In this document: positions 56,156 through 62,303 of the stretch, piece by piece
Numbering within the stretch: position 1 is the stretch's first letter
Layout: each line of letters begins with the position of its first letter
Assembly (NCBI GenBank): GCA_002162685.1
Contig: MAAQ01000020.1
Location: 124,001-188,000, forward strand
Direction: 5' to 3'
From: Flavobacteriales bacterium 33_180_T64
Lineage (GTDB): Bacteria > Bacteroidota > Bacteroidia > Flavobacteriales > Flavobacteriaceae
Length of the DNA stretch: 64,000 bases
The notes under the pieces: model-generated
Databases searched by the model: none
Told to the model about the DNA's origin: nothing
What the model saw: only the letters and a program-made list of their open reading frames with translations
Position numbers and translations under genes: made by a program

Positions 56156-57007
56156 ATGAGGATTTTTAAAAACAAAACAGACTTAACCACTTATGTTGAT
56201 GTCTTAAAGTCTGAAAAAAAAACACTGGGGTTTGTACCTACAATGGGTGCATTACATCAAGGGCACGCTTCATTAATCCTTGAAGGTTTAAAGGAAAATG
56301 ACTTTGTTGCTGTTAGTATTTTTGTTAATCCAACTCAGTTTGATAATCAAGAGGATTTGGTAAAATACCCAAGAACTTTAGATTGTGACGTAGAGTTACT
56401 TAAAACTATTTCCGATGAAAAAATAATTGTTTATGCACCAACGGTTTCAGATATTTACGGGAGTAATGTAACTTCAACTTCTTTTTCATACGATGGCTTG
56501 GAGCATGAAATGGAAGGCAAATTTAGAGACGGTCATTTTGATGGAGTTGGAACTATTGTAAAACGACTTTTTGAAATTGTTAGACCTAATAAGGCTTATT
56601 TTGGAGAAAAAGATTTTCAACAGCTCATGATAATTAAGAAACTTGTTGAAAAATATGAGATTCCAGTAACTGTTGTTGGTTGTAAAATACATAGAACAGA
56701 AGATGGTTTAGCTATGAGTTCTCGTAATACAAGGTTAAAATTGGACTATCGAGAAGCGGCACCTTTTATTTATGAAACCTTAAAATCTGTTAAACAAAAA
56801 TTTAGCAAGAAAAGTGCTTATAAAGTAACAGATTGGGTTACCAAACAATTTGCAAAACATGAATTATTAGAATTAGAATATTTTATCATTGCAGAGGTTA
56901 AAACTCTAAAAACAGTAAAACGAAAGTCAAACAAAAAAACATATAGAGCATTTATTGCAGTATATGCAGATGATATTAGACTTATAGATAATATCGCACT
57001 AAATTAA
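56156..57007 (+). CDS. panC: Pantothenate synthetase
   Basis: A 283-residue ligase joining pantoate and beta-alanine. The nucleotidyltransferase HIGH-like segment [11 protein letters not shown] is near residue 35, the pantoate pocket is [19 protein letters not shown], and a conserved GEKDFQQL and [12 protein letters not shown] follow. Length is normal. It starts a panC-panD run (13 bases to panD), with panD supplying beta-alanine. Confidence 0.97.
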
Positions 57008-57020: not shown

Positions 57021-57371
57021 ATGCAAATTCAAGTAGTAAAATCTAAGATTCACAGAGTAAAAGTAACTGGCGCAGACCTTAATTATATTGGTAGTATTAC
57101 TATTGATGAGGATTTAATGGAGGCAGCCAATATTATTCAAGGTGAGAAAGTTCAAATCGTTAATAATGATAATGGTGAGCGTTTAGAAACGTATTGTATC
57201 CCAGGACCACGACATAGTGGTGAGATTACTTTAAATGGAGCTGCAGCTCGAAAAGTTGCTGTTGGTGATACACTTATTTTGATTACATATGCGTTTATGG
57301 ATATTGAAGAAGCTAAAATCTTTAAGCCTTCGTTAGTGTTTCCTGATGAGGCAACTAACCTTTTAAAATAA
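57021..57371 (+). CDS. panD: Aspartate 1-decarboxylase proenzyme
   Basis: A 116-residue proenzyme which cleaves itself at Gly24-Ser25 (YIGSITID) to form a pyruvoyl cofactor and then makes beta-alanine from aspartate. The catalytic Lys9 and Tyr58 region ([12 protein letters not shown] and [11 protein letters not shown]) and the [11 protein letters not shown] segment are intact. It follows panC by 13 bases and precedes the YbhN-like gene by 4 bases. Confidence 0.97.
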
Positions 57372-57375
57372 ACTT

Positions 57376-58329
57376 TTGAATAAAAAGATAAAAAAAGCAT
57401 TAAAAATTATCCTTCCCTTATTATTGGGTGTTTTTTTGGTTTGGTATTCTTTAAAAGATGTTCCTATTCCTGTAATTATTGAATATTGGAAATCCTCAAA
57501 TAAATCCTGGATTGTTTTAGGTGTTTTTTTAGGCTTTTTAAGTCATTTATCTAGAGCATACCGCTGGCGTTTTCAATTAGAGCCAATGGGTTATAATATT
57601 AGGTTTGGAAACAGTATTATGGCTGTATTTGCCACCTACTTAATAAACTATACAATTCCTAGGTCTGGTGAAGTCGCTAGAGCGACAATACTTACAAATT
57701 ACGAAGGAGTCCCTTTTGAAAAAGGATTTGGAACAATTGTAGCAGAACGTATAGCCGACTTAATAGTAATGCTTGGGATTATAATAATCACGTTATTTCT
57801 TCAATTCGATTTTATTTATGCCTTTTTAATTGAAAAATTTAATCCAATTAAGATCATAATCGCCTTAATCGTAATTATCCTTGTAGTAACATTACTTTCC
57901 CTGTATATAAAAAAAAGCAAGTCTAAATTTGCTTTAAAGACAAAAACGTTCATTAGCGGTTTAACAGAAGGAGCTTTAAGTATTTTTAAAATGAAAAAGA
58001 AATGGCCCTTCATTTTTCACACACTTTTTATTTGGGTTATGTATTTACTCATGTTTTATGTTACATCTTTAGCTATTGAAGATTTACACGGAATTTCTAC
58101 AGGAGCTGTTTTAATAGGGTTTATTTCTGCAAGCTTTAGTATTGCAGCAACAAGCGGTGGTATTGGAGCTTATCCTTTGGCTATTTATGGAGCCTTTCTT
58201 ATTTTTGGTATTGAGAAAGATCCAAGTATTGCTTTTGGATGGATTATGTGGGCCGCCCAAACATTAATGATAATTGTATTTGGAGGACTCTCTTTAATTT
58301 ATTTACCAGTTTACAATAGAAGTAAATAA
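57376..58329 (+). CDS. UPF0104/YbhN-type membrane protein
   Basis: A 317-residue inner-membrane protein with about eight hydrophobic segments. The family motif is in AVFATYLINYTIPRSGEVARA, and a second signature is FGTIVAERIADLIVMLG. This resembles the transmembrane flippase part of lysylphosphatidylglycerol synthases (YbhN-like), without the synthase domain. It starts with TTG at 57376, as no ATG is nearby and the spacing to panD is 4 bases. Function not established; lipid translocation is only inferred. Confidence 0.85.
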   Translation: MNKKIKKALKIILPLLLGVFLVWYSLKDVPIPVIIEYWKSSNKSWIVLGVFLGFLSHLSRAYRWRFQLEPMGYNIRFGNSIMAVFATYLINYTIPRSGEVARATILTNYEGVPFEKGFGTIVAERIADLIVMLGIIIITLFLQFDFIYAFLIEKFNPIKIIIALIVIILVVTLLSLYIKKSKSKFALKTKTFISGLTEGALSIFKMKKKWPFIFHTLFIWVMYLLMFYVTSLAIEDLHGISTGAVLIGFISASFSIAATSGGIGAYPLAIYGAFLIFGIEKDPSIAFGWIMWAAQTLMIIVFGGLSLIYLPVYNRSK

Positions 58330-58363: not shown

Positions 58364-59500
58364 ATGAATAAAATTAAATTATTTATACTCTGTTGCCTAT
58401 TTTTTCAAATAGCGACTTCTCAAGTCATTTATGAAACAATTCAATCCTCTAAATTAGGAGACTCTAGAGAGATTAAAATTCAATTGCCAAGAAATTACGA
58501 CCCTGAAGGTGATGTTTTATACCCTTTAGTAATTGTTTTAGATGGCGACTATCTTTTCGAACCAATAACAGGTAATACAGATTATCACTCTTATTGGGGA
58601 GACATGCCCAAATCTATTGTTGTTGGGGTCAATCAAGCAAAAACTAGAGACGCAGATTTATTATATAGTGATATTACTTTTTTTCCGTCAGACGAAGGCG
58701 CTAAGTTTTTTGAATTTATTGGTATGGAATTAATACCATATATCAACGATAATTATTTGACGTCTGATTTTAGAATTATTGTTGGCCATGATCAAAGTGC
58801 TAATTTTATTAATTATTATTTATTTAAAGACAAACCATTATTTAGAGGTTACATTGCTTTTAGTCCAGATCTATCACCCGAAATGGCTAGTCGTTTGCAG
58901 GAAAAATTAGCGACTACTTCAGAAGACACTTTTTATTATATAGCTACTGCAGATAATGATGTTAAAGTATTAAGGCAAGATATTTTAGCGTTTAACACAT
59001 TGTTAAGTGCTATAGAGAATGAAAAATTACACTATAGATTTGATGACTTTATAGACGCAGATCATTATTCATTAGTTGGTTTAGGAATTCCAAAAGCAAT
59101 TAATGAGATATTTGGTTTGTATAAACCGATTAATAAAAAGGAATATAAAGCAAAAGTATTGACTTATGAAGAAGGGCCTTATGCTTACTTGATGAAAAAA
59201 TATGAAGACATTGAATTTTTCTACGGATTTGAGAAGAAAGTTGTTGAAAATGACCTTAGAGCTGTATTAGCAGCAATAAAAAAGAAGGATGATATCGAAG
59301 CTATGAAAGAATTATCCAAACTTGCTAAAAGAGAATATCCTGAATCTATGATAAGTGCTTATTATGCAGGAGTCTATCATGAAATGGGAGGCAATACTAG
59401 AAAAGCACTGATAGAATATAAATCGGGTTTGTTATTAGAAGAATCTGAATTTATTTTTAAAGACATGCTACTGGATAAAATTTATGATCTCCAGGAGTAA
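58364..59500 (+). CDS. Exported esterase-D-like protein lacking the nucleophile Ser (paralogue A)
   Basis: A 378-residue protein: signal peptide (KLFILCCLFFQIATSQ), an alpha/beta-hydrolase domain of the IroE/esterase D type (about 21-250) and a helical C-terminal part with one or two TPR-like pairs (about 300-375). The nucleophile elbow should be G-H-S-x-G; here it is GHDQSA (141-146), with Asp143 at the Ser position. The His of the triad remains (H234 in DADHYSL). Asp at this site is the nucleophile in epoxide hydrolases and dehalogenases, so either loss or change of activity is possible. It is paralogous to the next gene. Confidence 0.82.
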   Translation: MNKIKLFILCCLFFQIATSQVIYETIQSSKLGDSREIKIQLPRNYDPEGDVLYPLVIVLDGDYLFEPITGNTDYHSYWGDMPKSIVVGVNQAKTRDADLLYSDITFFPSDEGAKFFEFIGMELIPYINDNYLTSDFRIIVGHDQSANFINYYLFKDKPLFRGYIAFSPDLSPEMASRLQEKLATTSEDTFYYIATADNDVKVLRQDILAFNTLLSAIENEKLHYRFDDFIDADHYSLVGLGIPKAINEIFGLYKPINKKEYKAKVLTYEEGPYAYLMKKYEDIEFFYGFEKKVVENDLRAVLAAIKKKDDIEAMKELSKLAKREYPESMISAYYAGVYHEMGGNTRKALIEYKSGLLLEESEFIFKDMLLDKIYDLQE

Positions 59501-59591
59501 GAATTAAGATATTTCATGTATTTCATCGAGTAAATTAGCGCTTTAACTTATTTTGGGTATATTTACCCACCCTAAATTAAACTTACTTAAG

Positions 59592-60770
59592 ATGAAAACC
59601 CTCTTACTTTTTATCATCTCATTATTTTTTTGTGTTCAAATTTCAGCGCAAGTAATTTATGAGAAATTTGAATCTCGAAAGCTTAATACTACTCGAGAAT
59701 TAAAAATTAAACTTCCTGATAATTACGACCCAAAATCTGAATTAAAACACCCAGTGATTATTGTTTTTGACGGTGAATATTTATTTGAACCTGTAAGTGG
59801 TCAAGTCAGTTTTCAAACTCATTTTGATGAAATGCCCGAGTCAATAATTGTTGGAGTTATTCAAGGAAAAGAGCGTTTTTATGATAGTTACTTCGATGAG
59901 GTATCTGGTCTTCCAATAGAGTCTGGTGACCGTTTTTACAAGTTTGTAGCTCAAGAATTATTACCTTATATAGATGCTAATTATAACACAAGTAAGTTTA
60001 AAGTCGCAGTTGGTCATAATCTAATGGGTAATTTTATCAATTCATTTTTATTTCACGAAACTCCAGTATTCCAGGCTTACATTAACTTGAGCCCAGATTT
60101 TAAAGGAACCATGAGTCAAAATGTGACGACGCGTTTAGAATGGTTAGAGGATGATGTTTTTTATTATATGGCGACATCTAATACTGATATAAAATCTATA
60201 AGAACTAGTGTTAGAGAGACAGATCAAAGCTTAAAAGCTATTAATAATCAAAAACTCACTTATTATTATGATGAATTAAAAGGAGACTCTCATTACCAAT
60301 TAGTAACAGGTGCACTGTCTAAAGCAATGGATAGAATTTTTGAGATGTATAAACCACTTGATGAGAAAGAACTCAAAGAAAAGGTGCTTCCTTATGAAGG
60401 TACACTCGATGATTATATTGTTGATCGTTATAATCGTATTGATGATTTATTCGGAATTTTTAAGCCTATTTCAGAAGAAGAGCTTCAGCAATTAATTGTT
60501 GTTGCCGAAGAACGAAAAGACTTAGAGTCTGTATATAAAATTGGAAAACTTGCCAATAAGTTAAACCCTAATTCTTCTTTTGGGATTTATTATATGGCGC
60601 TACATGCCGAAAAGCTAGGAAAGACTAAAAAAGCTGTTAAACTTTATGAGTCTGCATTAACCTTAGAAGATATGGTTCATATTGATAGGGATTTTATCAT
60701 GTCTCATGTAGAAGGCTTAAAAGTGGTTGAGGAGGATACTGAAACAGATGACGAAGATGAAGAAAACTAA
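59592..60770 (+). CDS. Exported esterase-D-like protein lacking the nucleophile Ser (paralogue B)
   Basis: A 392-residue paralogue of the preceding protein with colinear motifs along its whole length. ATG 59592 is preferred over an upstream start that would add 13 residues before a clean signal peptide (MKTLLLFIISLFFCVQISAQ). The nucleophile elbow reads GHNLMG (141-146), so Asn143 stands at the usual Ser position. His234 in GDSHYQL is retained. The C-terminal helical repeat resembles TPR units, and the tail is very acidic (EEDTETDDEDEEN). A tandem duplication is the simplest origin. Confidence 0.82.
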   Translation: MKTLLLFIISLFFCVQISAQVIYEKFESRKLNTTRELKIKLPDNYDPKSELKHPVIIVFDGEYLFEPVSGQVSFQTHFDEMPESIIVGVIQGKERFYDSYFDEVSGLPIESGDRFYKFVAQELLPYIDANYNTSKFKVAVGHNLMGNFINSFLFHETPVFQAYINLSPDFKGTMSQNVTTRLEWLEDDVFYYMATSNTDIKSIRTSVRETDQSLKAINNQKLTYYYDELKGDSHYQLVTGALSKAMDRIFEMYKPLDEKELKEKVLPYEGTLDDYIVDRYNRIDDLFGIFKPISEEELQQLIVVAEERKDLESVYKIGKLANKLNPNSSFGIYYMALHAEKLGKTKKAVKLYESALTLEDMVHIDRDFIMSHVEGLKVVEEDTETDDEDEEN

Positions 60771-60944: not shown

Positions 60945-62303
60945 ATGGCTAAAGTAAAAACAACTTTTTTTTGTCAAAATTGCGGCACTCAATATTCTAA
61001 GTGGCAAGGACAATGTACAGCTTGTAAAGAATGGAATACAATAACAGAAGAGCTTATTCAAAAGCCAGAGAAGAGTGATTGGAAAACGCCTAATAATTCG
61101 TCGAAGCGTGTTTCAAAACCTCTTAAAATTAATGAAATTGATGCATCTAAGGAGGCTAGATTAAATACTATAGATAATGAGTTTAACCGTGTTTTAGGAG
61201 GTGGTTTGGTTCCAGGATCATTAACACTTTTGGGAGGAGAACCTGGGATTGGAAAAAGCACACTTCTACTTCAAATCTCATTAAAATTACCTTATAAAAC
61301 ATTATATGTTTCTGGCGAAGAAAGTCAGAAACAAATAAAAATGCGAGCAGAACGTATTAATCCAAATACAAATAATTGCTACATTCTTACCGAAACAAAA
61401 ACACAAAATATATTTAAGCAAATTGAAGGTTTAGAACCAGATATTGTTGTTATAGATTCTATACAAACATTGCATAGTGATTATATCGAGTCATCATCAG
61501 GAAGTATTTCTCAAATTAAAGAGTGTACTACTGAGCTTATAAAATTTGCAAAAGAAACAGCTACTCCTGTCATTTTAATTGGTCATATAACTAAAGATGG
61601 CAATATAGCTGGACCAAAAATATTAGAACATATGGTCGATACTGTTCTACAGTTTGAAGGTGATCGTAATCATGTGTTTAGAATTTTGAGAGCTCATAAA
61701 AATAGATTTGGTTCAACAAATGAGCTTGGAATTTACGAAATGCAAGGCTCTGGATTAAGAGAAGTTTCAAACCCTTCAGAAATCTTAATCTCTCAAAAAG
61801 ACGAAGAATTATCAGGCAACGCTATTGCTGCAACATTAGAAGGGATGCGTCCTTTAATGATTGAAGTACAGGCATTGGTGAGTACTGCGGTTTATGGAAC
61901 ACCACAACGTAGCGCAACAGGCTTTAATGCTAAACGGCTCAATATGCTATTGGCTGTTTTAGAAAAACGTGCCGGATTTAGACTTGGAGCAAAAGATGTG
62001 TTTTTAAATATTACAGGAGGAATTACAGTAGATGATCCTGCTATAGATTTGGCTGTTGTTGCTGCTATTTTATCCTCTAATGAAGATGAAGCACTACAAA
62101 AAGACTTTTGTTTCGCTGCTGAAGTTGGGTTATCTGGAGAAATTAGACCAGTGCAACGTGTAGAACAACGTATTTTAGAAGCTCAAAAATTAGGGTTTTC
62201 AACTATTTTTGTGTCCAAATACAATAAAATTGGATTAAAAAATACGGCAATAAAAATTCAATTGATTTCTAAGATTGAAGACTTGGTTGGTTTTGTAGTT
62301 TAA
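60945..62303 (+). CDS. radA: DNA repair protein RadA
   Basis: A 452-residue RecA-like protein. The N-terminal zinc finger (CQNCGTQYSKWQGQCTAC, residues 10-27) is followed by the Walker A motif GGEPGIGKST, the RadA-specific KNRFG motif (HKNRFGSTNE) and a C-terminal Lon-like domain (ITGGITVDDPAIDLAVVAA). It promotes branch migration in recombination. Upstream 174 bases hold no clear promoter. The start is ATG 60945, giving MAKVKTTFFCQNCG. Confidence 0.97.
   Translation: MAKVKTTFFCQNCGTQYSKWQGQCTACKEWNTITEELIQKPEKSDWKTPNNSSKRVSKPLKINEIDASKEARLNTIDNEFNRVLGGGLVPGSLTLLGGEPGIGKSTLLLQISLKLPYKTLYVSGEESQKQIKMRAERINPNTNNCYILTETKTQNIFKQIEGLEPDIVVIDSIQTLHSDYIESSSGSISQIKECTTELIKFAKETATPVILIGHITKDGNIAGPKILEHMVDTVLQFEGDRNHVFRILRAHKNRFGSTNELGIYEMQGSGLREVSNPSEILISQKDEELSGNAIAATLEGMRPLMIEVQALVSTAVYGTPQRSATGFNAKRLNMLLAVLEKRAGFRLGAKDVFLNITGGITVDDPAIDLAVVAAILSSNEDEALQKDFCFAAEVGLSGEIRPVQRVEQRILEAQKLGFSTIFVSKYNKIGLKNTAIKIQLISKIEDLVGFVV

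Follow-up and report, generated by a model that had tools for sequence, protein, structure and literature searches.

A tandem pair of exported proteins with an esterase fold, here called A and B, probably represents a branch of the putative-esterase fold that has lost catalysis. One relative, itself uncharacterised, has a solved structure. Family-wide alignments suggest, at a probability that we put at about two in three (0.66), that A and B belong to an old, maintained and non-decaying pseudoenzyme orthogroup derived from a serine esterase, which would bind a ligand in the former pocket and a partner via the C-terminus. The initial annotation had noticed the missing nucleophile serine in these two proteins; the observation is real, broader than first noted, and not peculiar to the pair.

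Results

A and B lie in a conserved gene neighbourhood. The window, a stretch of 64,000 nucleotides from Flavobacteriales bacterium 33_180_T64, carries panC, panD, an LPG_synthase_TM gene, A, B and a radA-like gene in this order, all on the + strand. From the coordinates, the gaps are 13 bp between panC and panD, 4 bp between panD and the LPG_synthase_TM gene, and 34 bp between the latter and A. The features are as follows.

56156..57007, + strand: panC, pantoate-beta-alanine ligase, conserved context
57021..57371, + strand: panD, aspartate decarboxylase, conserved context
57376..58329, + strand: membrane protein LPG_synthase_TM (PF03706), ending 34 bp before A, a usual but separable neighbour
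58364..59500, + strand: gene A, an exported protein of 378 aa with an esterase fold and Asp143 where the nucleophile would be
58784..58801, + strand: A elbow GHDQSA, residues 141-146
59063..59065, + strand: A His234 codon, in the alignment column where Ser-bearing relatives have their His
59135..59494, + strand: A C-terminal part, helical and weakly TPR-like, residues 258-377 (profile match and AlphaFold model)
59592..60770, + strand: gene B, the tandem paralogue, 392 aa when read from ATG 59592, with Asn143 where the nucleophile would be
60012..60029, + strand: B elbow GHNLMG, residues 141-146
60291..60293, + strand: B His234 codon
60363..60737, + strand: B C-terminal helical part, residues 258-382 (AlphaFold model)
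60945..62303, + strand: radA-like gene downstream, conserved context; Pfam matches AAA, ChlI and Zn-ribbon

We take the last of these genes to be radA. B was read from ATG 59592 (MKTLLLF...), the basis of its residue numbering. The TTG at 59553, which would give a 405-aa ORF, was rejected as the start: its 13 additional residues would spoil the match with A at 141-146. The two proteins are 38% identical in alignment, and each appears to begin with a signal-like N-terminus. Both match PF00756 'Esterase' above its gathering cut-off of 22 (37.3 bits for A and 49.0 for B); NCBIfam gave no match at its cut-offs.

Both paralogues lack serine at the nucleophile position. As first described, the elbow is changed at residues 141-146, to GHDQSA in A and GHNLMG in B, and the two motifs occupy the same alignment columns. 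Where a serine esterase has the Ser of a GxS elbow, A has Asp and B has Asn. The catalytic His after the last strand is present in both, as His234 in A and at the aligned position in B, again agreeing with the original description. The TPR-like C-terminal part that had been proposed holds up as a helical region in both models, but its resemblance to TPRs is weak and below the Pfam cut-off. Pfam returned TPR_2 in B only (E=0.019, 15.5 bits against a cut-off of 27) and no TPR row for A, and profile searches gave weak matches to a designed TPR over residues 335-362 and to a TPR-like chain over 296-362. Judged from the alignment, the elbow pattern of the pair is not chance, because it is common to the whole orthogroup.

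Serine is nearly absent from position 143 among relatives. The family-wide elbow alignment proposed in the initial annotation covered 326 distinct members, obtained from 387 pooled matches above 300 bits by keeping a single row wherever the last 330 residues were identical. The residue at 143 is Asp in 209 of them, Gly in 72, Asn in 32, Glu in 7 and Ser in 2, while Ala, Gln, Arg and Thr occur once each. A first sample had Ser143 in 0 of 138 sequences, and the two Ser members appeared with wider sampling. At other positions of the 326, H234 is found in 307, D199 in 290, S167 in 315 and N147 in 309, and residue 145 is Met in 72. Y63, Q91, P108, N147, N150 and Y191, among others, are conserved in the orthogroup, unlike in 11 Ser-bearing rows, where the S167 column is Ser in 6 and Asp in 5. 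The 31 matches below 300 bits were left out of these counts; they comprise 23 Ser-bearing esterases outside the orthogroup and 8 divergent rows, the latter representing five distinct sequences (L042=L120, L052=L118, L048=L119, L141 and L142) whose residues at 143 are S, K, D, G and R. More distant esterase matches outside the orthogroup keep Ser in 24 of 24 cases, including L003 and L004 of the window's own genome.

An orthologue with Ser143 had been named at the outset as a finding that would count against the pseudoenzyme idea, and this objection applies in small part. Two of the 326 members carry Ser143, L278 (G117) and L321 (G105), with TCG and AGT codons and with Asp199 and His234 kept; both nest within the Ser-less clade. 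The third case is a short, divergent B-like copy without the His (L042/L120), 283 aa long, which reads GHSEMAN with Ser at 143 and no His at 234, in an alignment that is less sure for so short a copy. A further diverged branch, L140, L141 and L142, has neither elbow Ser nor His, and its flanks contain no panC, panD, LPG_TM or radA match. These intermediate rows off the locus group with the Ser-less side.

The orthogroup is a widespread, dispensable component of one family. It is mostly single-copy, and across the family its usual neighbours are an LPG_TM-type membrane gene on one side and radA on the other. In the genus sample, A and B are both present in 23 of 23 genomes. An even family sample of 199 genomes from 198 genera yielded an A/B match at E<=1e-20 in 167 and none in 32. 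The figure of 167 sets a ceiling on orthologues at the panD-LPG locus, since 11 weak matchers (G024, G025, G047, G055, G068, G079, G134, G137, G140, G152 and G167) lack a copy there. Searches of the order (148 genomes) and of the phylum (198 genomes) found matches at E<=1e-77 confined to the window's family, the best outside it reaching 3e-47. In 80 named loci we read panC, panD, LPG_TM, A and radA in the same order; they come from Psychroserpens, Winogradskyella, Gelidibacter, Aquimarina, Dokdonia and others, which we take to be Flavobacteriaceae. The gene is dispensable: 32 family genomes have no match, and in 11 of 39 informative stretches A is missing although LPG_TM and radA are there. 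At seven g127 loci (L130, L132, L134-L137 and L139) there is no LPG_TM match between panD and A, and A and radA remain. One genome contains a second panD-LPG-A-radA locus with a Gly-type copy (L027, G017:C72:2236-3360); the assembly has 88% completeness and 4% contamination, and this contig is probably a contaminant.

Structural comparison identified a solved homologue with the same two-part build. AlphaFold models of both proteins are confident (A, pLDDT 94.4 and pTM 0.87; B, pLDDT 90.5 and pTM 0.83), and in each residue 143 sits between strand 133-142 and helix 144-154, the place of the nucleophile elbow. The closest solved structure is PDB 4W9R, with Z 40.4 over 356 residues for A and 40.5 over 357 for B and a profile match at E=1.2e-80. 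Sequence and structure match over the full length, including the C-terminal part, placing A and B in the orthogroup of 4W9R / Coch_1243. 4W9R is Coch_1243 of Capnocytophaga ochracea, an uncharacterized two-domain protein and structural-genomics target (CASP11 T0852 / CAPRI T94); it has been assessed as a homodimer whose largest interface measures 1190 A2 (PMC5030136). The profile alignment puts Glu at its nucleophile site and differs from A and B in having Val at His234 and Phe at Asn147. The pocket residues are therefore not universal, since 4W9R as aligned lacks both His234 and Asn147. We found no paper on the function of this gene in the open-licence literature searched.

Next after 4W9R came BES, a hydrolase resembling IroE, and further siderophore or feruloyl esterases. 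These siderophore and related serine esterases (BES 2QM0, IroE-like 3GFF, Fes, PfeE and EstB) share the alpha/beta fold, with Z of about 21-28 across 209-285 residues that fall largely in the N-terminal domain. They use a Ser nucleophile, as judged from entries titled esterases or hydrolases, several of them Ser-to-Ala mutants, whereas the A/B orthogroup has mostly D, G or N there and adds a helical C-terminal part. The best 50 matches of each search were by title serine esterases, acyltransferases or 4W9R; beyond these 50, other families, Asp hydrolases among them, may match as well. A paralogue in the window's own genome, L003 (G000:C23), resembles A and B in its esterase domain, hydrophobic N-terminus and tail with weak TPR-type matches, but it lies at a different locus and has GHSLGG, with Ser and with His in ENHS.

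Phylogeny points to a single early loss of the catalytic serine. A tree of 154 rows separated 143 orthogroup rows, thinned at 72% identity, from 11 Ser-bearing rows on a branch with SH-aLRT 99. At a minimum, three changes between Ser and non-Ser are needed, two of them being the isolated Ser members L278 and L321. The simplest reading is that Ser was lost once, before the sampled members diverged, and was then regained in two isolated reversions, with a root that is not certain in these quick trees, which have long outgroup branches and drew a programme warning of long branches meeting. L278 and L321 look like secondary reversions, because both nest inside the Ser-less clade.

Site 143 evolves under less constraint than the residues around it. 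It requires a minimum of 26 changes, at the 35th percentile of 359 sites (median 34); it is slower than the median site and hence not wholly free. Minimum changes elsewhere are 1 at G141, 3 at N150, 6 at A146, 6 at N147, 8 at D199, 9 at H142 and 13 at H234. G141, A146, N147 and N150 fall among the slowest tenth of sites, with conservation at 146-150 inflated in the 80 named loci, which were found partly by a pattern that starts at Ala146-Asn147 and leaves 143 outside. Residue 143 does not behave as a nucleophile, because a catalytic nucleophile should rank among the slowest sites and 143 does not, while several residues around it do. Across the 143 orthogroup rows of this thinned tree, the His at 234 has disappeared 8 times or more.

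Purifying selection on A and B is strong. Across 10 loci dN/dS has a median of 0.064 in A and 0.055 in B, taken from the pairs with measurable dS (27 of 45 for A and 29 of 45 for B), and five neighbouring genes span 0.024-0.120. The initial argument against decay is thus borne out by values within the neighbours' range and by two intact AlphaFold models.

B is a lasting companion of A with no fixed residue of its own at 143. The two adjoin in 56 of the 57 loci L165-L221, the L221 copy being divergent, and this constancy makes redundancy between the duplicates improbable. The 80 named loci contain 56 B copies, with Asp in 41, Asn in 14 and Glu in 1; in the window and 9 close loci, B has Asp in 4 and Asn in 6, and A has Asp in 10 of 10. 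The proposed unequal pair of an Asp enzyme and an Asn binder is not supported by these counts, since most B copies have Asp and B may have either residue within one close group. A stable Asp/Asn division of labour between A and B was rejected on the same counts. Four loci (L118, L119, L120 and L221) contain three-gene arrays in which a copy resembling A is accompanied by a short or divergent one resembling B and by a third of the GHGxTANF type. These arrays suggest an older Gly-type gene, since lost from the window's genus, next to which A and B arose.

Discussion

Our preferred reading is that A and B are retired esterases kept for binding. Their ancestor would have been a serine esterase of the siderophore-esterase/PF00756 kind, from which the exported two-domain proteins descend. 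The catalytic Ser was presumably lost once, before the sampled members diverged; site 143 has since moved among small and polar residues, with its surroundings under constraint. The conserved residues beside a variable nucleophile site suggest that the pocket was kept and put to another use, of which ligand binding is the simplest. A and B would act in the periplasm without ester hydrolysis, with the former pocket, His234 and the orthogroup-specific Asn147, Asn150, Tyr63, Gln91 and Tyr191 recognising a ligand, and the helical C-terminal part may bind another protein, the whole probably acting as a dimer. Psychroserpens, Winogradskyella and genera related to them keep the pair together, which may reflect a hetero-dimer or two ligands. 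The initial annotation had offered pseudoenzymes as one of two options, and it appears to be the better one: as far as alignments and substitution rates tell, the catalytic residue is lost and selection is maintained.

Catalysis by other means fits the variation less well. Asp is the nucleophile at this site in epoxide hydrolases and haloalkane dehalogenases, and the other original option was a different hydrolase of that sort, in which Asp143 would work, if not everywhere, then in the A branch and the other lineages with Asp. Asp is indeed the commonest residue, fixed in A across the 10 loci compared, which leaves some room for a role of its own in that branch, and His234 (307/326) and Asp199 (290/326) are mostly kept. 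It is not invariant across orthologues, however (209/326): sister lineages have Gly (72/326), Asn, Glu, Ala, Gln, Arg or Thr within the same surrounding motif and with adjacent pocket positions mostly unchanged, B is mixed within ten close loci, and 143 changes far more often than 141, 146, 147 or 150. Such variability led us to reject an Asp nucleophile as the general mechanism, and we hold even its lineage-restricted form to be very unlikely. A residual or new enzyme working through another residue (Ser/Thr145, Ser167, or His234/Asn147 as acid-base), for example a lyase or transferase, is somewhat easier to accommodate and still unlikely. The retention of H234, S167 and N147 in 307, 315 and 309 of 326 members and the orthogroup-specific N147 and N150 favour it, and so many His234 could mean residual catalysis; yet residue 145 is Met in 72 members, Ser-bearing rows have Ser or Asp in the S167 column, His was repeatedly lost on the tree, and 4W9R as aligned lacks both His234 and Asn147.

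The neighbourhood raises another role, that of a lipid- or headgroup-binding partner for the adjacent LPG_TM flippase-like membrane protein, whose gene lies directly upstream in most loci read and 34 bp away in the window. This coupling is weakened because each gene occurs without the other. LPG_TM matches 193 of 199 genomes versus 167 for A/B and is found with radA but without A in 11 of 39 informative stretches, while 7 of 9 g127 loci have A with panC/panD close upstream and no LPG_TM match in the 1.5 kb flank, and G148 has no LPG_TM match at E<=1e-15. We regard such a partnership as distinctly improbable. That the genes are relaxed, decaying esterase duplicates is hardly credible: the catalytic Ser is gone and extra copies in some arrays are short and divergent (275-283 aa in L118, L119 and L120), but frames are open family-wide, folds are confident, orthogroup-specific residues are conserved, and a dN/dS near 0.06 led us to reject decay.

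The pseudoenzyme reading has precedents elsewhere in the fold. Neuroligins and the GID1 receptor are catalytically dead alpha/beta-hydrolase-fold proteins. An inactive Arb2 domain and a family without catalytic residues are cited in PMC11878206. These proteins likewise reuse a hydrolase fold without catalysis, in subfamilies that differ from that of A and B. A bolder version of the pseudoenzyme reading, which we offer tentatively and consider well below an even bet, is that a Ser esterase was converted once, before the family radiated, into a periplasmic binder or receptor whose dead active site would hold an ester-, siderophore- or lipid-like ligand, with A and B forming a hetero-dimer in some marine genera.

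For this family, the Pfam 'Esterase' label misleads. Across this large environmental family the gene stays in nearly the same place, but in almost every species read its product is without the residue that makes an esterase, and an easy annotation error is corrected here. The orthogroup is also a clear case in which to study the periplasmic role of a dead hydrolase: it has a solved relative, and its two natural Ser-bearing members, L278 and L321, are natural test cases for regained activity.
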